This document shows positions 483 through 16,639 of a stretch of 16,639 bases of DNA, one piece after another. The stretch's first letter is position 1; each line of letters starts with the position of its first letter. Source of the stretch: Sedimentisphaerales bacterium (GTDB taxonomy: Bacteria; Planctomycetota; Phycisphaerae; Sedimentisphaerales; SG8-4); the NCBI GenBank assembly GCA_016928975.1, contig JAFGJR010000246.1, positions 1-16,639 of the forward strand. Reading direction: 5' to 3'. Both the position numbers and the translations under genes were made by a program. Below the pieces are notes generated by a model. It had not been told where the DNA came from, made no database searches, and was given only the letters and a program-made list of their open reading frames with translations.

Positions 483-2954
483 ATGAGATTGCACATTCGC
501 CATCTTCTCATCGTCGTCGTGCCGGCGACCTTCTGTCTTGCCGAGACGATCTCTCTCGCATCATTGCAGGAGTCTTATGTGGGGTCGGCCCGGTGTCGGC
601 AGTGCCATGAGTCGTTCTATCAACTGTGGGCGCCGTCGCATCACGGCCTGGCGATGCAGCCGTACACGCTCGAATTCGCGCAGGCGAATCTGACGACTCA
701 GCAGACGCCCATCACGATCGGTGGGCGCGAATACACCGCTTGCGTCGGGCAGGGGGAGGGTTGGATTCTGGAGAAGGGGCCGGACGGCCGGAAGCAATAC
801 CGGATCGCGCACGTGATGGGCGGCAAGAACGTCTACTACTTCCTGACACCGATGGAACGCGGGCGATTGCAGACTCTGCCTGTGGCATATGACGTTCGGG
901 CCAGGACGTGGTTCGATACGGCCGCCAGCGGCGTGCGGCATTTCCCCGGCGCCCGAGCCGATGCGCCTGTGCACTGGACGGACCCGATGTACACGTTCAA
1001 CACCTCCTGTCACGGTTGCCACGTGAGCCAGTTGGCCACGAACTACGATCTGAAGACCGACACCTATCACACCACGTGGGCCGAGCCGGGGATCAACTGC
1101 GAGGCCTGCCACGGCCCTGCTCAGGAACATATCCAGGTCTGCCAGGCAGTCGCACGTGGCGTCGGCGTCCCGCCCATGAATCCCGGAAGTGTTCACGGGC
1201 GAGATGCCCGTGCTACTCATGGGCGGGACGCCGACGCCACGGGAACGCCTCGCGGCGTCACTACAAGCGTGCAAGACCTCAAGATCATCATCACCAAGTC
1301 CTTCACGGGTGACCAGATCAACTCCATGTGCGGATCGTGTCACGCCAAGATGAGCCCCTTGAGCGCATCCTTCAGGTCCGGAGAGCGATTCCTCGATCAC
1401 TTCGATCTGACTGCTCTGGAGCATCCGGACTTCTACCCGGATGGGCGCGACCTGGGCGAGAATTACACGATGACCAGTTGGCGCATGAGCCCGTGCGCCA
1501 GGAGCGGCAAGCTGGATTGTGTGCACTGTCACACATCCAGCGGACGTTATCGATTCAAGAACGATCCAAGACCAGATGCGGCCTGCCTGCCCTGTCACCG
1601 GCAGCGGGTGGAGAACGCGACGGAACATACGCACCACAAGGCAGACGGCACGGGGAGCCAGTGTGTCGCCTGTCACATGCCCATGACCGAGTTTGCCCGG
1701 ATGACCCGCAGCGATCACTCGATGCGTCCGCCCACGCCGGCTGTTACGGTCAGGTTCAAGTCCCCGAATGCATGCAACATTTGCCACAGTGACAAAGACC
1801 CCGCCTGGGCGGATCAACACGTGAGGCAGTGGCACGATGACGACTATCAGAAACCCGTTCTGGAGCAAGCCTGGCTCGTGGACGCCGCACGGCGGGGCGA
1901 TTGGCGGCGATTGAGCGACATCCTGGCATACATCGGCTCGAAGGATCGTGACGAGATCTTCGCCGTGTCGCTGATTCGGCTGCTGTATCATTGCGGGTCG
2001 CAGGCCAAGTGGCCGGTCGTGATCGAAGCTCTACGCGAGGATCCTTCCCCGCTCGTACGTGCGGCGGCGGCCCAGGCACTCGACGGGTACGTTGCGGAGG
2101 AATCCGTCAGGGCACTGGCCAATGCGACGAGTGACGAGTATCGTCTCGTCCGTGTGCGGGCTGCCAGCGCCCTCGCCGCCGTCCCTGTAGAGACGCAAAA
2201 TCTTGCGTCTCTGCCAAGCGAGCAGCAGACAGCGGTCCGACGTGCCACGGCGGAACTGCTTGAGGCACTCCGTGCCCGGCCCGATGACTACGCATCCCAC
2301 TACAACCTGGGCAACTTCTTCATGCAGCGTGGGGACTCGGGAAAGGCGCTGGCTTCCTACGAGAGCGCGATCAAGCTAAGGGCCGACTTCGTCCCGCCTT
2401 ACGTGAACGTTGCGTTTGTCTACAACGCCCGGGGCGAGAACGACAAAGCGGAAGCCTCTCTGCGCCAGGCCAGCGTGCTGGACCCGAACAATCCGGCTGT
2501 CCATTTGAACCTCGGGATGCTCCTGGGCGAGAGGAAGCGCATGAAAGAGGCGGAACAGGCTTTTCGCAGGACACTCGAGATCGACCCCAATTCCGCGGCC
2601 GCCGCGTATAACCTCGCCGTCTGCCTGGCCGCGGACCGGCCGTGGGAGTCGTTGCGACTGTGTCAGAAGGCCTACCAGTTGCACCCGGAAGAGGGCAAGT
2701 ACGGCTACACCTACGCATTTTACCTGCATCAGCGCAGAGAGACGGATGAGGCCGTGGAGGTTCTCAAACAAATGGTCCGTCGCAATGTGCCGTACGGTGA
2801 TGCCTACGCGTTGCTTGGCAGGATTCACCTCGAACGGGGCGAGCTGGAAGAAGCCGCTGACGTATATCGGTCCGCCTGTAGCAATGGCAATCTGACGCAG
2901 GGCGAACACGACAGCTTCCGAGCGATGCTGCGCAGACTGGAGCAAGGGTATTGA
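483..2954 (+). CDS. Octaheme c-type cytochrome with HEAT and TPR domains
   Basis: The 823-aa product is an exported multiheme cytochrome, presumably an electron carrier or a scaffold in a respiratory complex; the redox partner is unknown. ATG 483 is the first in-frame start after a stop at 420; GAGG lies just before it. A signal peptide fits residues 1-20 (basic n-region, hydrophobic LLIVVVPATFCLA). Eight CXXCH motifs begin at residues 38, 176, 206, 283, 346, 368, 394 and 431. Residues about 480-570 look like HEAT repeats and about 590-800 hold five or six TPRs (for example YNLGNFFMQRGDSGKAL), suggesting protein docking. Two stretches are palindromic repeat DNA read in frame: residues 225-253, between hemes 3 and 4, and 569-577, between HEAT and TPR. 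The gene converges on a sulfatase with a 15-nt gap and has no visible terminator. Confidence 0.93.
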   Translation: MRLHIRHLLIVVVPATFCLAETISLASLQESYVGSARCRQCHESFYQLWAPSHHGLAMQPYTLEFAQANLTTQQTPITIGGREYTACVGQGEGWILEKGPDGRKQYRIAHVMGGKNVYYFLTPMERGRLQTLPVAYDVRARTWFDTAASGVRHFPGARADAPVHWTDPMYTFNTSCHGCHVSQLATNYDLKTDTYHTTWAEPGINCEACHGPAQEHIQVCQAVARGVGVPPMNPGSVHGRDARATHGRDADATGTPRGVTTSVQDLKIIITKSFTGDQINSMCGSCHAKMSPLSASFRSGERFLDHFDLTALEHPDFYPDGRDLGENYTMTSWRMSPCARSGKLDCVHCHTSSGRYRFKNDPRPDAACLPCHRQRVENATEHTHHKADGTGSQCVACHMPMTEFARMTRSDHSMRPPTPAVTVRFKSPNACNICHSDKDPAWADQHVRQWHDDDYQKPVLEQAWLVDAARRGDWRRLSDILAYIGSKDRDEIFAVSLIRLLYHCGSQAKWPVVIEALREDPSPLVRAAAAQALDGYVAEESVRALANATSDEYRLVRVRAASALAAVPVETQNLASLPSEQQTAVRRATAELLEALRARPDDYASHYNLGNFFMQRGDSGKALASYESAIKLRADFVPPYVNVAFVYNARGENDKAEASLRQASVLDPNNPAVHLNLGMLLGERKRMKEAEQAFRRTLEIDPNSAAAAYNLAVCLAADRPWESLRLCQKAYQLHPEEGKYGYTYAFYLHQRRETDEAVEVLKQMVRRNVPYGDAYALLGRIHLERGELEEAADVYRSACSNGNLTQGEHDSFRAMLRRLEQGY
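1155..1241. repeat. 87-bp nested palindrome inside the cytochrome gene
   Basis: Perfect 25-bp inverted arms at 1155-1179 and 1217-1241 enclose a second perfect 7-bp hairpin (CACGGGC 1194-1200, loop GAGAT, GCCCGTG 1206-1212). The length is exactly 29 codons, so the reading frame is kept; it encodes residues 225-253 (RGVGVPPM... HGRDARAT HGRDADAT). Because of the symmetry, the antisense strand reads similar RGVGVPPM and HGRDADAT peptides. From memory, HGRDARAT-type peptides recur in planctomycete and related proteins, pointing to a dispersed palindromic element. No target duplication is evident at the edges. Confidence 0.9.
2189..2212. repeat. 24-bp palindrome inside the cytochrome gene
   Basis: A perfect 10-bp inverted repeat (AGAGACGCAA / TTGCGTCTCT) with a 4-nt AATC loop. 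It is read in frame as part of VETQNLASL (residues 569-577), at the junction between the HEAT-like region and the TPR array. Similar short palindromes (GTAGAGACGC... class) occur in many bacterial genomes as I recall. It is unrelated in sequence to the 87-bp element in the same gene. Confidence 0.75.
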
Positions 2955-2969
2955 TCACCTGCACGGACC

Positions 2970-4364
2970 TCACCTGCTGCCGCGCGCGTCCCTGGCCTTT
3001 TTGCCCTTCCTGGCGCCGGGTGCGGCACGATCACTGCTCGTCCGGTCACCGCCCCAGAGGGGCTCGACATTCGCGGCGTTCCAGGTGTCCCATCTCGATT
3101 GAAGATCCTTTACCCTATCCGGCATCGTAGCGGACAGGTCGTTGCTCTCGCCGATGTCGGCAGCGAGGTCGTAGAGCCTGGCCGCGGTGACTGGCTGGTT
3201 GCGGGCGCCAGTGAGCGTGTCGGCGTTGCTGTCGTAGCGCACAAGCTTGTAGTCGCCGAGACGGATGGCCATCTGCTGGCCGAAACGCCAGTACAGCGGG
3301 TCATGAGGCGCGCCGGTCTTCTCGCCGGCGAGGAAGGGCAGCAGGTTGACGCCGTCGAGGTTCCAACTTGGGCTGACGCGTACGCCTGCCACTGACAAGG
3401 CAGTGGCAGTGAGGTCCAACTGGATAACGGGTCGGTCAGACACGCCCGGTTTCAAGCGGCCCGGCCACGATACGATGAACGGCACGCGGATGCCTCCTTC
3501 CAGGGTGGTGCGCTTGGACCCTCGCAAGGGAGTGTTGCGCGAGGCGTTGATCGTCGTGCTGGGCATGGTCGGCCCGCCATTGTCGCTGATGAAACAAACC
3601 AGCGTACTTTGTTCGAGGCCGGTCTCGAAGAGTTTCTTCCTCACGCGGCCGACGGCTTCATCCAGCGCCAGCATCATGGCGTCATACGTGCGGCGTTTCT
3701 CGTCGGCTTCATTGGCGAACTTCGCGACCCGCTCATGGGTGGCCTGCATCGGGGTATGGACTGCGTTGAACGCCAGGTAGAGGAACCACGGCTCGCTCTT
3801 GTGACGCTCGATGAAGGCAGCGGCTTCGCGCCCGAACGCATCGGTCGTATAGTCGAGCTGCGTCACTGCCTCCGTGCCGCGAAGGATGCCGGCCGGTTTG
3901 AAGTAGTCGTGAGCGCCTCCCAGGAAGCCATAGAACTCGTCGAACCCGCGCCTTTGTGGGTGGAACTCGCCTTGGGCTCCGAGATGCCACTTGCCGACCA
4001 GGCCGGTGACATAGCCGGCGGCCTTGAGGCGCTCGGCAATCGTCCGCTCAGTGAGGGGCAGGCCGCTGGTGCCGCCGGGGTTGAATTCGTGCCCGAACCG
4101 GGTCTGATACCGGCCGGTCATCAGGCCGGCCCGCGTGGGCGAGCAATACGGCCCGGAGACGTAGCCGCTGGTGAAGCGCACGCCCGATGCGGCGAGCGCG
4201 TCGAGATTCGGCGTGGGGATGTCCTTACATCCGTGGAATCCCGCGTCCGCATACCCCATATCATCCGCGACGATGAAGAGGATGTTGGGGCGAGCGGGCC
4301 CCGCAAGCCCGGCAGAGCAAACCTGCAACGTCAGAAGCATCACGATCAACGCTGTCCGTCTCAT
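2970..4364 (-). CDS. Exported sulfatase (formylglycine type)
   Basis: A 464-aa sulfatase of the arylsulfatase (S1/alkaline phosphatase fold) family, hydrolysing a sulfate ester of an unknown, probably carbohydrate, substrate in periplasm or outside the cell. The start at 4364 is chosen because GAGG (GAGGACAGGT before ATG) lies at good spacing and the product then opens with a signal peptide, MRRTALIVMLLTLQVCSAGLA; the longer frame to 4487 adds only basic non-family sequence. Visible motifs: RPNILFIVADD with metal ligands D34-D35; CSPTR at 74-78, whose Cys becomes formylglycine; GKWHLG; and SDNGG. The C-terminus is a basic tail (ARKGKKARDARGSR). It is transcribed away from the sulfatase operon at 4568, with its own candidate promoter. 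Substrate cannot be read from sequence. Confidence 0.95.
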   Translation of the reverse strand: MRRTALIVMLLTLQVCSAGLAGPARPNILFIVADDMGYADAGFHGCKDIPTPNLDALAASGVRFTSGYVSGPYCSPTRAGLMTGRYQTRFGHEFNPGGTSGLPLTERTIAERLKAAGYVTGLVGKWHLGAQGEFHPQRRGFDEFYGFLGGAHDYFKPAGILRGTEAVTQLDYTTDAFGREAAAFIERHKSEPWFLYLAFNAVHTPMQATHERVAKFANEADEKRRTYDAMMLALDEAVGRVRKKLFETGLEQSTLVCFISDNGGPTMPSTTINASRNTPLRGSKRTTLEGGIRVPFIVSWPGRLKPGVSDRPVIQLDLTATALSVAGVRVSPSWNLDGVNLLPFLAGEKTGAPHDPLYWRFGQQMAIRLGDYKLVRYDSNADTLTGARNQPVTAARLYDLAADIGESNDLSATMPDRVKDLQSRWDTWNAANVEPLWGGDRTSSDRAAPGARKGKKARDARGSR

Positions 4365-4458
4365 ACCTGTCCTCGCGCCTCTTGTACCTCGATGTGCCGT
4401 CTTGGTCGCCATCGACCTGGGGCGAAAGGCGACGGCAACGGCCTTGCGTCGTTTGCTG

Positions 4459-4487
4459 ATTCTAATGCGTCGCCACACGCCCGGCAA
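4459..4487 (-). promoter_or_regulatory. Candidate promoter of the minus-strand sulfatase
   Basis: On the minus strand TTGCCG (4482-4487), a 17-nt spacer and TAGAAT (4459-4464, five of six consensus bases) would start transcription near 4452, about 88 nt before the ATG at 4364. A further TACAAT (4491-4496, minus) lies upstream without a good -35. Confidence 0.5.
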
Positions 4488-4518
4488 TGTATTGTATGCT
4501 TCACACCGCGACCAGGCT

Positions 4519-4527
4519 TGTTATAAT
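4519..4527 (+). promoter_or_regulatory. Extended -10 promoter of the sulfatase operon
   Basis: TGTTATAAT at 4519-4527 is a perfect extended -10 (TGn plus TATAAT). The -35 position (about 4499-4504) is poor, as is usual for extended -10 promoters. Transcription would start near 4534, leaving about 34 nt before the ATG at 4568. It lies about 30-60 bp from the divergent promoter at 4459-4487, so both could share regulation. Confidence 0.55.
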
Positions 4528-4567
4528 CGCGACGTTGAATGACATGGATGTGCTGGAGTCACCGAAC

Positions 4568-7360
4568 ATGAAACGAGCGATTGTGTTCATCGGATTGGTC
4601 TTGTTGCTCCACCCGGCGGCTGTGCGCGCCGCCGACTCACCCCGACCCAACCTGGTCATCATCAATATCGACGATCTTGGCTACGGGGACATCGGGCCGT
4701 TCGGGTCCACGCTGAATCGCACGCCCCATCTGGATCGAATGGCGACGGAAGGGCGTCGGCTCACCACGTTCTACGCGGCGCCGGTGTGTTCGCCGTCGCG
4801 AGCGGCGCTAATGACCGGCTGCTATCCGAAACGCTCGCTGCCCATCCCTCACGTGCTCTTTCCCGGCAACGATGTCGGCCTCGCTCCCTCCGAGGTCACG
4901 GTCGCCGAGTTGCTCAAATCCGCCGGCTACGCCACAGGCATTGTGGGAAAGTGGCATCTCGGCGATCAACCTGAGTTCCTGCCTACGCGCCAGGGATTCG
5001 ACGAATGGTTCGGCCTTCCCTATTCGAACGACATGGGCCCGGCGGCCGACGGCGTCAAGAGCAGCTTCGGCGTCCCATTGCCGGCGGAGTCGAAGAACCC
5101 CCAGCCGCCGCTGCCGCTGATGAGAGGGGAGACGGTTGTCCAGCGGGTCCTCGCAACGGATCAGACGCAACTGGTCACGCGATACACCGAGGAGGCACTG
5201 CGGTTCATCCGTGCGCACAAGGATGAGCACTTCTTTCTCTACCTGGCGCACAACGCCGTGCACTTCCCGCTGTATCCGGGCGAGCCGTTCCGTGGCAAAT
5301 CCGCCAACGGCCTTTATGGCGATTGGGTCGAGGAGGTGGACTGGAGCGTGGGCGAGGTGCTCAACGCGTTGCGGACGCAGGGACTCGCAGAGAAGACTCT
5401 CGTCCTGTTTGTCAGCGACAATGGTGGCACGCCCCGTGCCGTCAACCGTCCGCTGCGCGGGTTCAAAGGCTCGACCTGGGAAGGCGGGGTGCGCGTCCCG
5501 GCCATCGCCTGGTGGCCGGGCAAGATCCCGGCGGGGACATCCAGCGACGCCATGTGCGGCATGTTCGACGTCCTGCCGACGTTCGCCGCCCTTGCCGGCG
5601 CCGCGGTCCCCGGCGACCGCAAGATCGACGGCCTGGACATCCGCCCCGTCCTCATGGGAGAGCCGGACGCGGCTGCGGCCCACGAGGTCTTTTACTACTA
5701 CCGAGGTCTTGAATTGGAGGCCGTCCGCGACGGTCGGTGGAAGCTGGTCCTGCCGTCTGCGGCCGCCAACGCCCGCAAGGCCAAAGCCAAAAACGCAGGG
5801 GGCGAAAAGGCAGCCCTCCTGTTCAATCTCAAGATGGACGTCGGCGAAAGCGCCGATGTTGCCGCCGAGCATCCGGAAGTCGTCGCGCGGCTGGAGAAGC
5901 TCGCGGCGGCGATGAAGGACGATCTTGGGACCAGCGGCCTGGGGCCGGGCTGCCGTCCTCTGGGCAAGGCGGCGAATCCCCAGCCGCTCATCGGTTACGA
6001 CGGCAAGGTGCGGCCGGGCTTCGAGCCAAAGTCAGCCGCGGCTGGCGGCCGAACGACGAGCAGGCCCAACGTGATCCTGATTCTGGCGGATGATCTCGGC
6101 TATGAGACGATCGGCGCCAACGGCGGCACGAGCTACCGGACGCCGCAACTCGACAAGCTGGCGGCCACCGGGGTGCGCTTCACCCACTGCTTCGTGCAGC
6201 CACTGTGTACGCCGACCCGCGTGCAGTTGATGACGGGGCGCTACAACGTGAGGAACTACATCCGCTTCGGGACCATGGACCCGCAGGCGGTCACGTTCGC
6301 CAATGTGCTTCACCAGGCCGGCTACGCCACGTGCATCGTGGGCAAGTGGCAACTGGGTCGCGACATCGACCTGCCGAAGAAGTTCGGATTCGACGAGTCT
6401 TGCCTCTGGCAGCACACCCGCCGGCCGCCTCGCTATGCGAATCCCGGCCTCGAAATCAATGGGGTGGAGAAGGACTATGCGCACGGCGAGTACGGGCCCG
6501 ACCTTGTGAACGACTACGCGCTGGACTTCATCACGCGCAAGAGGGACGTCCCGTTCTTTCTCTACTACCCGATGATGCTGACGCACGCTCCCTATCAGCC
6601 GACGCCGGACAGTCCGGATTGGGACCCGGAGGCGGTGGGCGAGCAGGTCAACACGAACGCGAAGCACTTCGCCGACATGGTCGCCTACATGGACAAGCTC
6701 GTCGGCAAGCTGGTTGCCAGGCTCGACTCGCTTGGCATCCGCGACAACACGCTGCTTCTCTTCGTCGGCGACAACGGTACAGGCCGTGGCGTGCGGTCGA
6801 TGATGGGCGACAGGCTCGTGATCGGCGGCAAGGGCACGACCACCGATGCGGGGATGCACGTGCCGTTGATTGCGAGCTGGCCCGGCCGGACCACGGACGG
6901 ACAGGTGTGTGCCGACCTGGTGGACAGCACGGACTTGCTGCCGACGATCCTGGACGCCGCAGGCGTAACTGCCCCGTCTGGTCTCAAGCTGGATGGCCGT
7001 ACGTTCCTGCCGCAGATCCTTGGCGCCAAAGGCCAGCCGCGCGACTGGGTCTACTCGTGGTATTCGCCGCGTCAGTCCGCCGACATGACCGTCCGGGAAC
7101 TTGCCTTCAACCATCGCTACAAGCTCTACCGCTCCGGCGAGTTCTTCGATCTGAGCAGAGACCCCGGGGAGAAGCACCCGCTGAAGGTGGCGGGTCTCGA
7201 TGGCGAAGCCGCCACTGCGGCCAAGCTGCTTCAAGGGGCGCTGGATCAATTCAACGACGCCCGGCCCCCGGCGCTCGATCGCGCCTCCGAGCAAGCGGAC
7301 AAGGGCAAGGCGAAGAGCCGGAAATCGACGACGAAAGCCAGGCGAAAGGGCAAGAAATGA
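4568..7360 (+). CDS. Double sulfatase: two catalytic domains in one protein
   Basis: A 930-aa exported protein with two complete sulfatase domains. ATG 4568 is preferred over the upstream ATGs at 4487 and 4544: GGAG (4555-4558) precedes it and a signal peptide follows ([21 protein letters not shown]). Domain 1 (about 26-490): D35-D36, CSPSR with C74, GKWHLG, SDNGG. Domain 2 (about 499-890): [11 protein letters not shown] with D508-D509, CTPTR with C547, then GKWQLG, where Gln replaces the usual His, and GDNGTG. The join ([15 protein letters not shown], then AAAGGRTTS) looks like a natural sulfatase C-terminus followed by a second sulfatase without its signal peptide, so a fusion of adjacent genes is likely. 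The tail is Lys/Arg-rich. The stop overlaps the next ATG (ATGA). Substrates are unknown; the two domains may act on different sulfate positions. Confidence 0.94.
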
Positions 7361-8835
7361 AACGTCGCACTCGATGGAGCCTGGGTCTGCTACTGCTCCT
7401 GTTCTGCTGCGACCTGCCGGCCTATGGCGCCGGAAAGCCGAATATCCTGTTTCTCTTCGCCGACGACCAGCGAGCGGACACCATCGCCGCGTTGGGCAAT
7501 CCGCACATCAAGACGCCAAACCTCGACAAGCTGGTGACTTCCGGCTTCACCTTCCGGACGAACTACTGCTTCGGTGGCAACAGCGGGGCCGTGTGTGTGC
7601 CCAGCCGGGCGATGCTGATGAGCGGCAAGACGTGGTTCCACATCGATACCGTGTCGCTCAAGGGTGTCAAGCTCCTGCCGGAGCTGCTTCAGGAGAACGG
7701 CTACGCGACGTTCGCCACCGGCAAATGGCACAACGGCCAGGGCTCCTGGCTGCGCGCCTTCCAGCAAGGAAAAGCCGTCATGTTCGGCGGCATGTCGGAT
7801 CATTCCAAGGTGCCGGTTCGAGACCTCGGCTCCGACGGCAAGCTGACGGCGGTGCGAACCGGCGAGAAGTTCTCCAGCGAGTTGTTCGCGGATGCCGTGA
7901 TCGAGTTCCTGCAAAAGCACGACGACAGCAAGCCCTTCTTTGCATACGTGGCCTTCACGGCGCCGCACGATCCTCGGATGCCGCCTCTGGCGTTTCGGGA
8001 ACAGTACTACCGTGACCTGCCTCCGCTTCCCGCGAACTTCCTTCCACAGCTTCCGTTCGACAACGGCATGATGAAAGGTGGTCGGGACGAGAACCTGGCG
8101 CCCTGGCCGCGAACGGAGGGCGTCATTCGTGACCAGTTGGCGGAGTACTACGGCATGATCACGCATCTGGACGGGCAGATCGGGCGGATTCTCGAAGCCT
8201 TGAAACAGACCGGCCAGGCAGACAACACCGTCATCATCTATGCCGCTGACAACGGTCTTGCCCTGGGCAGTCACGGCTTGCTGGGCAAGCAGAGCGTCTT
8301 CGAGCACAGCATGCGGGTCCCGCTGATCTTCATAGGTCCCGGCATTCCGCGGGGCAAATCCACTACGGCGTTCAGTTACCTGCTGGATGTCTTCCCGACC
8401 CTGTGCGACCTGATTGGGGTTCCGTGCCCATCGGACGTCGAAGGCGAGAGCCTGCGTCCCCTGTGGGAGGGCAAGAAAGACCGGGTTCGCGACTCCGTGT
8501 TCCTGCCGTACATCGAGATCCAGCGCGCCGTCCGGGACGAGCGGTGGAAACTGATCTGCTATCCGAAGATCAGCTACATGCAGTTGTTCGATCTGCAAGC
8601 CGATCCCGATGAGAAGACGAATCTCATCGACCGGGCAGAATCGGCGGAGCAGGTCGAGCGACTGCTCAAGCTGATGGGCCGGTGGCAGGCGAAAGTGGGC
8701 GACACGTTGAGACTGCCGACGGAGAACAAGCCGCCCGAGGCCGTCGATCTGACCGGGCGAAAGCGCGTCCCCGACCAGTGGCAGCCGGAGTGGATCGTGA
8801 AGAAGTACTTCGACGTGTCTGCGGCGGCGCGCTGA
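7357..8835 (+). CDS. Exported sulfatase, choline/iduronate-sulfatase-like
   Basis: A 492-aa formylglycine-type sulfatase. The start overlaps the previous stop as ATGA, with AAAGGG about 7 nt upstream, so translation is probably coupled. Signal peptide: [18 protein letters not shown]... AYGA. Motifs: [12 protein letters not shown] with D36-D37; CVPSR at 80-84 (Cys80 to formylglycine); [22 protein letters not shown]. The FADDQRADT opening and the GSHGLLGK segment resemble the iduronate-2-sulfatase/choline-sulfatase branch more than the arylsulfatase A branch of its neighbours, but the substrate is not deducible. It is the last gene of the two-gene operon; no U-tract terminator follows. Confidence 0.94.
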
Positions 8836-14615: not shown

Positions 14616-14711
14616 TTGAATAGATAAATGAAATGGCCCGATCCGACCAGACGCGTTGATGCCTGCCGCACACCCAGCCCAGTCAGTAGGCTGTTTCATT
14701 TATCCATTCAA
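14616..14711. repeat. 96-bp element bounded by 23-bp imperfect inverted repeats
   Basis: The arms at 14616-14638 and 14689-14711 match as inverted repeats at 20 of 23 positions (core GATAAATGAAA). The arms are AT-rich while the surroundings are GC-rich. There is no coding capacity inside. It may be a MITE-like or REPIN-like unit, or a remnant of a larger element. No target duplication is evident. Confidence 0.55.
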
Positions 14712-15143: not shown

Positions 15144-15199
15144 TTCGGGCCCACGCCCATCCGGGGAGTGTCTATGCCGCTCGCTCTTCACACATTCCG
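15144..15199. repeat. 56-nt dispersed repeat, copy A
   Basis: Matches 16584-16639 in direct orientation at 54 of 56 positions (the two differences are in the GCCC-rich 5' part). The 3' module GCTCTTCACACATTCCG also occurs at 16545-16561. It lies inside the in-frame tract upstream of the prepilin-like gene. Confidence 0.9.
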
Positions 15200-15220: not shown

Positions 15221-15277
15221 TGTCATTCCTGCGAAAGGCCTGCCCTCGACCTGATCGGGGGCAGGAATCCAGGAAGC
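15221..15277. repeat. Hairpin repeat (VIPAKAGIQ type), copy 1, long form
   Basis: Its ends are identical to copy 2 at 16172 (16 nt at the 5' side and 20 nt, including the following ATG, at the 3' side). It carries 24 extra nt (15237-15260) in the loop of the ATTCCTGC / GCAGGAAT stem; the extra segment creates a competing CCTGCCC / GGGCAGG stem. The repeat ends AGGAAGC and is followed at once by the ATG of the prepilin-like gene. Confidence 0.85.
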
Positions 15278-16150
15278 ATGAGGACGAAGAAGGCATTCAC
15301 CTTGATTGAGCTGCTGGTGGTGGTCTCGATCATCGCCCTGCTGATCTCGATCCTGCTGCCATCGTTGCAGCGGGTGCACAAGCAGGCGATGAGCATAGGC
15401 TGCCAGGCGAACCTGCGCCAGTGGGGCATCCTCTACGCGACCTACACGTCGCAGAATAACGGCTACCTGCCGCCTCTGCTCGATAGCGTACCCACCGACT
15501 GGGCTGCGTCCAACTGGATGGGGAGCTCCGGAATTCCCCACGCGCGTTTGTGCATCGCCGAAGGGGGGTCGTTCGCAGCCTTCAAGGGCATCTTCTGCTG
15601 CCCCTCGGCTGCAAAGCCCGGGTATCCAATTCTATTTCCGGCGCCAAAAGGAGGGACATTCCTGGCTTGGACCGTGGGTTGGTCAGCGGGCCCCAGTTCA
15701 TTGGCGGGCTGGTACAGCAGCTACGCCGCGAACCATCAGGCTCACTCGTGGTGGGGTGACAGGTCAGATCCGAGCATCGGTCCGAAGTTGCGTTTCACAT
15801 GGATGACCAGCGCGGTCAAGAACGCGGCGGCAGTCCCCGTTTTTCTCGATAGTATGTGGGCAGAGGTGATTCTCTACGACGATAAGTCGCCGCCCCCGCA
15901 GTGCGACGCCATTCCCACCCGAACCTTGGAGGATCCAACTCGTGTTGACGCGTATTCGGTCTGCATCAATCGTCACGAGGGCGGGATCAACAGCCTGTTC
16001 ATGGATTGGTCGGTGCGCAAGGCTGGTCTCAAGGAGCTATGGACGCTCAAGTGGTGGAGCGAGTACAACACGCAGGGCCCCTGGACCAAAGCCGGCGGGG
16101 TCAAGCCCGAGGACTGGCCGTTGTGGATGCGACGATTCAAGGATTACTGA
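15278..16150 (+). CDS. Prepilin-like protein with type IV pilin/pseudopilin N-terminus
   Basis: A 290-aa protein starting MRTKKA, then FTLIELLVVVSIIALLISI: the classic class III signal, cut by prepilin peptidase between A6 and F7, with the hydrophobic helix forming a membrane anchor or pilus core. The rest resembles the large planctomycete family of DUF1559/PulG-like surface proteins; the C-terminal NRHEGGINSLFMDWSVRKAGLKELW has Trp where many relatives have DG. Function within the family is poorly known (pseudopilus, cell-surface or secretion substrate). Start choice: ATG 15278 fits family length, but its AGGAAG lies only 1 nt away. ATG 15113 has AGGGAG at 5 nt spacing and would add 55 residues encoded by repeats. 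Direct copies of the hairpin repeat flank the gene. Confidence 0.88.
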   Translation: MRTKKAFTLIELLVVVSIIALLISILLPSLQRVHKQAMSIGCQANLRQWGILYATYTSQNNGYLPPLLDSVPTDWAASNWMGSSGIPHARLCIAEGGSFAAFKGIFCCPSAAKPGYPILFPAPKGGTFLAWTVGWSAGPSSLAGWYSSYAANHQAHSWWGDRSDPSIGPKLRFTWMTSAVKNAAAVPVFLDSMWAEVILYDDKSPPPQCDAIPTRTLEDPTRVDAYSVCINRHEGGINSLFMDWSVRKAGLKELWTLKWWSEYNTQGPWTKAGGVKPEDWPLWMRRFKDY

Positions 16151-16171: not shown

Positions 16172-16203
16172 TGTCATTCCTGCGAAAGCAGGAATCCAGG
16201 AAG
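16172..16203. repeat. Hairpin repeat (VIPAKAGIQ type), copy 2
   Basis: Perfect 8-bp stem ATTCCTGC (16176-16183) / GCAGGAAT (16188-16195) closed by a GAAA tetraloop, then CCAGGAAG. One frame reads YVIPAKAGIQEAW, a peptide signature I recognise from repeats dispersed in many bacterial genomes. Its AGGAAG (16198-16203) is placed as ribosome-binding site 7 nt before GTG 16211 of the GIY-YIG gene. Confidence 0.9.
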
Positions 16204-16210
16204 CATGGGA

Positions 16211-16639
16211 GTGAAGTGCTACTACGTATACATCCTGGCCAGTAAGAAGAACGGCACACTGTACATCGGTGTGACGAATGATCTGCTACGCCGCGTGCAC
16301 GAGCACAAGTGCGCCCAAGTGCCGGGCTTCACCAAGCGATACGGCGTGGACAAGCTGGTCTACTACGAGACCTTCACAAAGGTCTACGACGCTCTGACGG
16401 CGGAGAAACGCCTCAAGGCATGGAAGAGGCAGTGGAAGATCGAGCTGATCGAGAAGGACAATCCCGAATGGCACGACCTGTACGATGTCCTGACCGGACA
16501 AGTGGATTCCTGCTTCCGCAGGAATGACAGAGTCGGTTCCGGTGGCTCTTCACACATTCCGAGGTCACGTATTCGTCCGGCTTTTCGGGCCCGCGCCCAG
16601 CCGGGGAGTGTCTATGCCGCTCGCTCTTCACACATTCCG
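16211..16639 (+). CDS. Small GIY-YIG nuclease, open at the right edge
   Basis: A single-domain GIY-YIG endonuclease of the UvrC N-terminal/YhbQ-like group, cutting DNA at sites that cannot be predicted. From GTG 16211: YYVYILAS and LYIG form the GIY...YIG pair (residues 5-20), R27-R28 and H32 follow (DLLRRVHEHK), FTKRYGVDKLVYYE is the next conserved block, and E65 in AEKRLKAWKRQWK is the metal-binding Glu. The domain ends near residue 94 (NPEWHDLYDVL). GTG is preferred because AGGAAG lies 7 nt upstream and family members begin M-K-x-YYVYIL; ATG 16205 is two codons earlier. The frame stays open through the inverted repeat (VDSCFRRND) and the next repeats to the window edge, 143 codons, so the true stop is unseen. 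It follows the prepilin-like gene by 60 nt, filled mainly by the repeat. Confidence 0.88.
   Translation, partial: MKCYYVYILASKKNGTLYIGVTNDLLRRVHEHKCAQVPGFTKRYGVDKLVYYETFTKVYDALTAEKRLKAWKRQWKIELIEKDNPEWHDLYDVLTGQVDSCFRRNDRVGSGGSSHIPRSRIRPAFRARAQPGSVYAARSSHIP
16503..16529. repeat. Hairpin repeat, copy 3, inverted
   Basis: Reverse complement of copy 2 with one difference in 27 nt, located in the loop (TTCC on the plus strand, GGAA on the minus), so the 8-bp stem is preserved. It is read in frame by the GIY-YIG gene as VDSCFRRND. Confidence 0.9.
16545..16639. repeat. Repeat array with 78-bp period at the right edge
   Basis: GCTCTTCACACATTCCG occurs at 16545-16561 and again at 16623-16639, a 78-bp period, with the 56-nt repeat copy B (16584-16639) ending exactly at the window edge. 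Sequence after the first module (16562-16581) resembles, at 13 of 20 positions, that after copy A (15200-15219). The array probably continues beyond the window. The unit is too long and too internally related to be a CRISPR spacer-repeat unit. Confidence 0.7.

Follow-up and report, generated by a model that had tools for sequence, protein, structure and literature searches.

A subfamily of small GIY-YIG nuclease genes is paired by position with hairpin repeats of the CGTC-tagged REP type; the enrichment of these hairpins beside the gene is strong, and at an orthologous site in Bradyrhizobium the unit formed by gene and hairpins is in flux. The case from which the analysis started lies at the end of a stretch of 16,639 nucleotides from a Sedimentisphaerales bacterium (GenBank assembly GCA_016928975.1, contig JAFGJR010000246.1), which is called the window throughout. 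An earlier reading of the window (the original prediction) had proposed that its nuclease gene, bracketed by inverted hairpins, might be a minimal mobile or repeat-dispersing unit. On balance we favour the view that an Ssn-type nuclease gene sits inside a doublet of its own target and that cutting at the REPs, followed by repair, turns the unit over. From the patterns described below we infer that the nuclease recognises the hairpin, cuts it and has a causal part in the turnover.

The nuclease gene and its two hairpins

The open reading frame that starts with the ATG at 16205 belongs to the GIY-YIG superfamily, with a PF01541 score of 59.4 bits against a cut-off of 22.6. Across the window and its relatives, Y9, Y20, G22, R30, H34 and N86 are kept in 81 of 81 sequences and E67 in 79 of 81; Y9, Y20, R30, E67 and N86 we take to be the catalytic tyrosine, arginine and glutamate and the C-terminal asparagine of GIY-YIG nucleases. 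The description of the gene as a single-domain GIY-YIG nuclease with intact catalytic residues is thereby borne out. The subfamily is large, since at least 7968 proteins match the nuclease at 1e-10 or better among 8000 candidates scored. Among the 120 matches listed, the source names, where given, are "putative endonuclease" or "GIY-YIG nuclease family protein", with one "hypothetical protein". NCBIfam and PADLOC profiles gave only weak matches for the nuclease, with no usable name and no defence assignment. Two solved structures matched, PDB 1zg2 and 1ywl (28 and 18 bits), which are UPF0213 single-domain GIY-YIG proteins of the same domain and size; the similarity is low.

The gene does lie between inverted copies of one hairpin (Table 1). 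The two 27-nt copies are complementary at 26 of 27 positions (96%), for which the chance expectation in a sequence of the window's size and even base composition is about 6e-7. As single-stranded DNA, each folds at -7.8 kcal/mol into a stem of 8 bp that carries a 4-nt loop, a value matched by none of 200 shuffles. Both have the structure that defines CGTC-tagged REPs, TGTC-ATTCCTGC-GAAA or GGAA-GCAGGAAT-CCA with a stem beginning in AT, and in both the CCA tail faces the nuclease gene. The window contains two full copies of such REPs and one chimera, and the exact stem type is present in 1 to 37 copies per genome in eight genomes that carry relatives of the gene.

Table 1. Positions of the nuclease unit and of other repeats and genes in the window
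Feature	Position	Strand	Remarks
Cytochrome/TPR ORF	483-2954		
Perfect 25-nt inverted pair	1155-1241		inside the cytochrome/TPR ORF; in-frame region ...HGRDARATHGRDADATG...
First sulfatase ORF	2970-4487		
Second sulfatase ORF	4487-7360		two sulfatase domains in one frame
ORF following the sulfatase ORFs	within 2970-8835		resembles the sulfatase ORFs by eye
Imperfect 23-nt inverted pair	14616-14711		50 nt apart; between TruA-like (named from its translation) and pilin-like genes
56-nt direct repeat	15144-15199 and 16584-16639		96% identical
Chimeric hairpin relative	15221-15273	+	tag and left arm shared with the hairpin (TGTCATTCCTGCGAAAG), middle foreign, right arm shared (GCAGGAATCC)
Left CGTC-type REP hairpin	16172-16198	+	TGTC tag, 8-bp stem, loop GAAA, CCA tail toward the nuclease gene
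GIY-YIG nuclease, single-domain	16205-16498	+	conserved part, 98 aa; ORF still open at the window end, 16639
Right CGTC-type REP hairpin	16503-16529	-	inverse orientation; tag-strand loop GGAA; CCA tail toward the nuclease gene; in frame within the ORF

The homology of the relatives to the window ORF ends near 16498, so that the right hairpin is read in frame, as DSCFRRNDR, past the conserved domain; the earlier statement that the right copy is read into the ORF was correct. The companion statement, that the left copy supplies the ribosome-binding site, is no more than plausible: an AGGA (16198-16201) stands upstream of the nuclease ATG, and it begins with the base that ends the CCA tail. The 20 nt GCAGGAATCCAGGAAGCATG before the nuclease gene start also precede the pilin-like ORF at 15261, and these two genes thus have the same repeat-derived start region; the chimeric hairpin (stretch 15221-15289) stands directly before the ATG of the pilin-like ORF.

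Several further features of the window were noted in their own right. The window end falls inside the second copy of the 56-nt direct repeat, so the contig may have stopped at this repeat. The perfect inverted pair in the cytochrome/TPR ORF is an intragenic palindromic repeat of a different kind, and the two sulfatase ORFs and the imperfect inverted pair are included in Table 1.

Hairpins beside the nuclease gene in relatives

Hairpins of the CGTC type (tag, stem and tail) were scored within 250 nt of the gene at 81 loci, namely the window and the best 80 of 584 relatives. A tail-inward hairpin was found upstream in 55 of these loci and downstream in 54; in either orientation, 69 loci had a CGTC-type hairpin within 250 nt and 12 had none. 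Among control ORFs of these loci that lie over 700 nt from the gene, 31 of 464 had a hairpin on the right, and for all other ORFs of these loci the counts were 52 (left), 59 (right) and 10 (both sides) of 631. From the hairpin density in the remainder of these loci, 0.047 would be expected per 250 nt; the hairpin finder returned 308 hairpins, compared with 15 on reversed sequence. Since 18 of the 80 loci have titles in Bradyrhizob*, many of them syntenic, counts are also given for one locus per genus-level group: both sides were flanked in 23 of 48 groups. A hairpin-flanked case is present in 14 of 17 named phylum labels. A simple inverted-flank score of at least 15, reached in 48 of 81 loci versus 3 of 1021 control placements, was superseded by the CGTC-REP definition, which also detects flanks with two differing hairpins.

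Plain coincidence, in which REPs that are common between genes happen to bracket the nuclease gene, can point to the hairpins that do occur near other genes (on the left of 29 of 464 control ORFs). It is ruled out by these ORF controls, as tail-inward hairpins stand on both sides in 42 of 81 loci versus 9 of 464 and at least one side is flanked in 37 of 48 genus-level groups, and we give it practically no credence. The enrichment of the hairpin beside this subfamily relative to other genes, on which the original prediction had staked its case, is confirmed.

The association also distinguishes this subfamily from other GIY-YIG genes. Control-set genes at least 49% identical to that of the window had any hairpin in 13 of 29 cases and tail-inward hairpins on both sides in 7 of 29, a lower share with any hairpin than in the 81-locus set, and 16 of 29 had none. 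At about 32-45% identity, a flanking hairpin was found in 0 of 29. Six genomes with the hairpin but no close gene had 30 PF01541 loci, of which 23 were scored, none with a hairpin beside it; the seven unscored loci had no alignable match, and the 23 include short alignments, long multidomain proteins and two overlapping loci. Combined, GIY-YIG loci of other kinds thus had a hairpin beside 0 of 52 scored. In the control sets, 2 of 60 loci were without a match.

These comparisons bear on a further explanation, namely that the nuclease does not recognise the REPs, whose sole role would be that of signals for the gene in RNA or DNA (termination, mRNA stability or translation start). Most flanking hairpins do lie some tens of bases from the start and end of the match, and the window repeat borders the ATG, both of which would suit such signals. 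However, among the sets compared the hairpin accompanies this subfamily only, the copies on either side stand in inverse orientation with conserved tag and tail, and elsewhere such repeats occur as doublets without the gene, so that we consider a pure signal function quite improbable.

Co-occurrence of gene and hairpin in genomes

In both groups tested, the hairpin is more frequent in genomes that bear the gene. In the Bacteroidota family of the L078 genome (titled Winogradskyella; 149 genomes), the exact hairpin ATTCCTGCNNNNGCAGGAAT was present in 46 of 71 genomes with the gene versus 20 of 78 without it at the preset match cut of 1e-12, which gives the main count. It was present in 13 of 13 genomes with a match of 1e-30 or better, a cut picked after the table had been seen, and the next genome (1.9e-30) was without the hairpin. 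In the phylum of the L009 genome (titled Phycisphaerales; 199 genomes), a longer exact form of the hairpin was found in 7 of 17 genomes with the gene versus 6 of 182 without it, the patterns in the two groups being of different length. Fisher p values were 1.3e-6 for the L078 family and 1.1e-5 for the L009 phylum, without correction for kinship. Some genomes without a close gene are nevertheless rich in the hairpin (45 copies in G363 and 48 in G382), which means that the repeats can persist without a close gene, or that the gene was lost or missed. In the six checked hairpin-bearing genomes without a gene match at 1e-12, the PF01541 matches were all of other kinds.

Relation to known nucleases and repeats

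The closest known counterpart is presumably the Ssn family, which the window nuclease appears to resemble in description. Ssn proteins, reportedly presented in Nature Communications in 2025, are said to be GIY-YIG site-specific single-strand nucleases that were found via a Neisseria repeat and have thousands of homologues. They were reportedly described from Neisseria meningitidis with the NTS repeat, as single-domain GIY-YIG proteins with a cognate repeat in many copies and with homologues that each have their own sequence, and in Neisseria they are said to tune DNA uptake or recombination by cutting at repeats. Both cases combine a GIY-YIG gene with a paired repeat, the pairing here being by position only. 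The nuclease-repeat pairing is therefore probably already known as the Ssn family: if this account of Ssn is right, the window holds a further member. To our knowledge, gene mobility was not part of the Ssn work. The present work then connects the pairing to CGTC REPs as a class and adds the data on turnover. A literature search for GIY-YIG nucleases with REPs, covering one limited collection, found no paper.

The repeats themselves belong to a described class. As characterised in the sections of PMC3733652 on CGTC-tagged REPs, these have a CGTC or TGTC tag, an 8-9 bp stem starting from AT, a 4-5 nt loop and a CCA tail, and they are reported in several phyla. The hairpins of the window agree with them in tag, stem, loop and tail, and inverted dimers and occurrence in Bradyrhizobium are shared as well. 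They differ in that those sections report no dedicated transposase, Di Nocera and co-workers leaving open what makes or moves the repeats, whereas here a GIY-YIG gene lies inside the dimer. The same sections discuss SbcCD and deletion at inverted repeats and describe RAYTs as tyrosine transposases that act on GTAG REPs (PMC3733652). REPIN/RAYT systems, as outlined in parts of PMC3116915, likewise have inverted REP doublets beside a gene for a DNA-cutting enzyme, but they combine a tyrosine transposase with GTAG REPs, whereas here a GIY-YIG nuclease is combined with CGTC REPs. The main text of a 2006 survey of GIY-YIG proteins (PMC1564403) does not contain the terms YhbQ, UPF0213 or palindrom.

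Two known kinds of unit were considered and rejected. A RAYT or REPtron does not agree with the domains found, which include GIY-YIG and T5orf172 only and no HUH tyrosine transposase gene, nor with the tag, which is TGTC and not GTAG. A classical homing unit does not agree with the hairpins, which as candidate targets are intact on both sides in the window and in the loci flanked on both sides.

Turnover at an orthologous site in Bradyrhizobium

In Bradyrhizobium (the genus of L010), the unit lies between RmuC-like and AmpG-like genes, both named from their translations. The AmpG-like gene was found in 97 genomes, from which 80 sites were taken, 79 of them with both flanking genes; of the 17 genomes left out, several were close to the end of a contig or far down the list, and the states of the L010, L044 and L030 genomes were known before the sites were sampled. 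The nuclease gene is present at 35 of the 79 sites and absent from 44. Occupied and unoccupied orthologous sites, whose comparison had been proposed as a check, therefore both exist, and they alternate between close species. A tree built from the RmuC-like flank requires 27 changes to account for the presence of the gene, versus 26.1 for shuffled labels; at least 9 of the changes are forced by starred branches, and recombination of the flank may add to the count.

Gene-bearing sites have the order hairpin-gene-hairpin or doublet-gene-doublet, several with one side unrecognised, and at the site of L156 no hairpin was recognised on either side. One or more REP hairpins were recognised at 22 of the 44 gene-less sites, mostly as doublets of two kinds, and none at 18. 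Four others (L086, L100, L129 and L145) have one hairpin with a tag at both ends (nearly so in L086). Such double-tag hairpins look like excision scars from which all that lay between two hairpins has been removed; the exact form occurs in 10 of 98 genomes, three of which have it, by position, at the Bradyrhizobium site (G228, G230 and G256). L089 and L093, with the same flanks, differ by the gene and one doublet, and within L089 the two doublets form direct repeats of 91% identity. In L142, L157, L109 and L116 the gene-less allele has unrelated sequence in place of the unit, and there is no clean empty site. L030 and L075 carry the unit in the opposite orientation with respect to their two flanks. 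L044 contains an additional copy elsewhere; at that second site other species show a doublet, some other sequence or next to nothing. Inspection by eye of the sites compared revealed no target-site duplication.

Direct doublets and inverted hairpins would allow the unit to be gained, lost or inverted through ordinary recombination or slippage, with no part for a nuclease. Another explanation is that the nuclease serves the host: putative cutting of incoming or looped single-stranded DNA at REPs, its working sites, would tune uptake or recombination, and the turnover would be a by-product of recombination. The role reportedly assigned to Ssn in Neisseria speaks for this, as does the contrast between doublet-gene-doublet and a single doublet, which is expected from plain recombination between flanking doublets. 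A further link to Neisseria comes from the sections of PMC3733652 that equate CGTC-1 repeats with dRS3 of that genus. The number of presence/absence changes, as high as for shuffled labels, is however unlike a stable host function, and some gene copies have internal stops, which together make service to the host, in our judgement, unlikely though far from negligible.

Loop, stem and strand features

Four-base loops have the form GNNR on the tag strand in 118 of 130 hairpins and the reverse form in 0 of 130, and five-base loops are mostly CTTGA (71 of 108). The GNRA pattern noted originally holds for the two loops of the window, GAAA and GGAA, and has to be relaxed to GNNR for the family as a whole. 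The finder has no rule for the loop, so that its fixation on one strand is not built in, although many copies are related; conservation of the stem is partly built in, because the finder requires complementarity. Stem sequence varies widely between lineages while tag and tail are constant, which is only suggestive, as tag, stem and tail are all required by the finder. A loop that is fixed on one strand fits better with recognition of a folded single strand than with recognition of duplex DNA.

The class of hairpin also follows the nuclease. At the Bradyrhizobium site (35 genes), the hairpin class beside the gene tracks the gene tree with 3 changes versus 11.7 for shuffled labels, none of 500 shuffles being as low, and among the 53 of 81 loci that could be labelled, the loop class tracks the protein tree with 9 changes versus 17.5 (0 of 500). 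Both matches are confounded by linkage and kinship, a gene and a hairpin at one site being linked in any case, so a shared tree agrees with matched recognition and is no proof of it.

Proposed mechanism and implications

In the reading that we favour, the protein encoded at 16205 would be an Ssn-type single-domain GIY-YIG nuclease with the CGTC-tagged REP hairpin as its predicted target, extruded in single-stranded DNA during replication, conjugation or DNA uptake. The features predicted to be recognised, all on the tag strand, are the TGTC tag, the stem, the loop with its leading G and the CCA tail. Once a REP had been nicked or cut, the ends could be repaired by copying from, or recombining with, other REP-flanked stretches, and in this way REP sites would gain, lose, invert or exchange the gene together with its bracketing REPs.

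In a bolder form of this reading, CGTC REPs would form one half, the repeats, of a mobile system of wide distribution: a GIY-YIG nuclease of about 100 residues would move itself and REP doublets without a transposase. Putative cutting of single-stranded hairpins and repair copying into REP sites would then produce doublet-gene-doublet arrangements, inversions and collapsed double-tag scars. We regard this form as tentative and doubt it somewhat more than we credit it, because plain recombination between direct doublets, as well as slippage or cleavage at inverted repeats, would yield these products even if the nuclease played no part. The original tie of nuclease and hairpin in a mobile or exchangeable unit thus survives in part: the enrichment and the alternation of sites agree with it, whereas recombination between repeats could explain much of the picture in Bradyrhizobium, many gene-less alleles there are not clean, and six hairpin-bearing genomes that were checked have no close gene.

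For the CGTC REP family, the association names one candidate enzyme. Since most close relatives, in many phyla, have a hairpin of the same kind beside the gene, the nuclease is a leading candidate for the missing partner of these repeats, as judged from gene neighbourhoods. The association also predicts which nuclease pairs with which hairpin, and the Bradyrhizobium site provides a natural system with occupied, unoccupied and collapsed states. If the nuclease moves repeats, REP-like repeat populations would have a second way to arise, one that needs no transposase.
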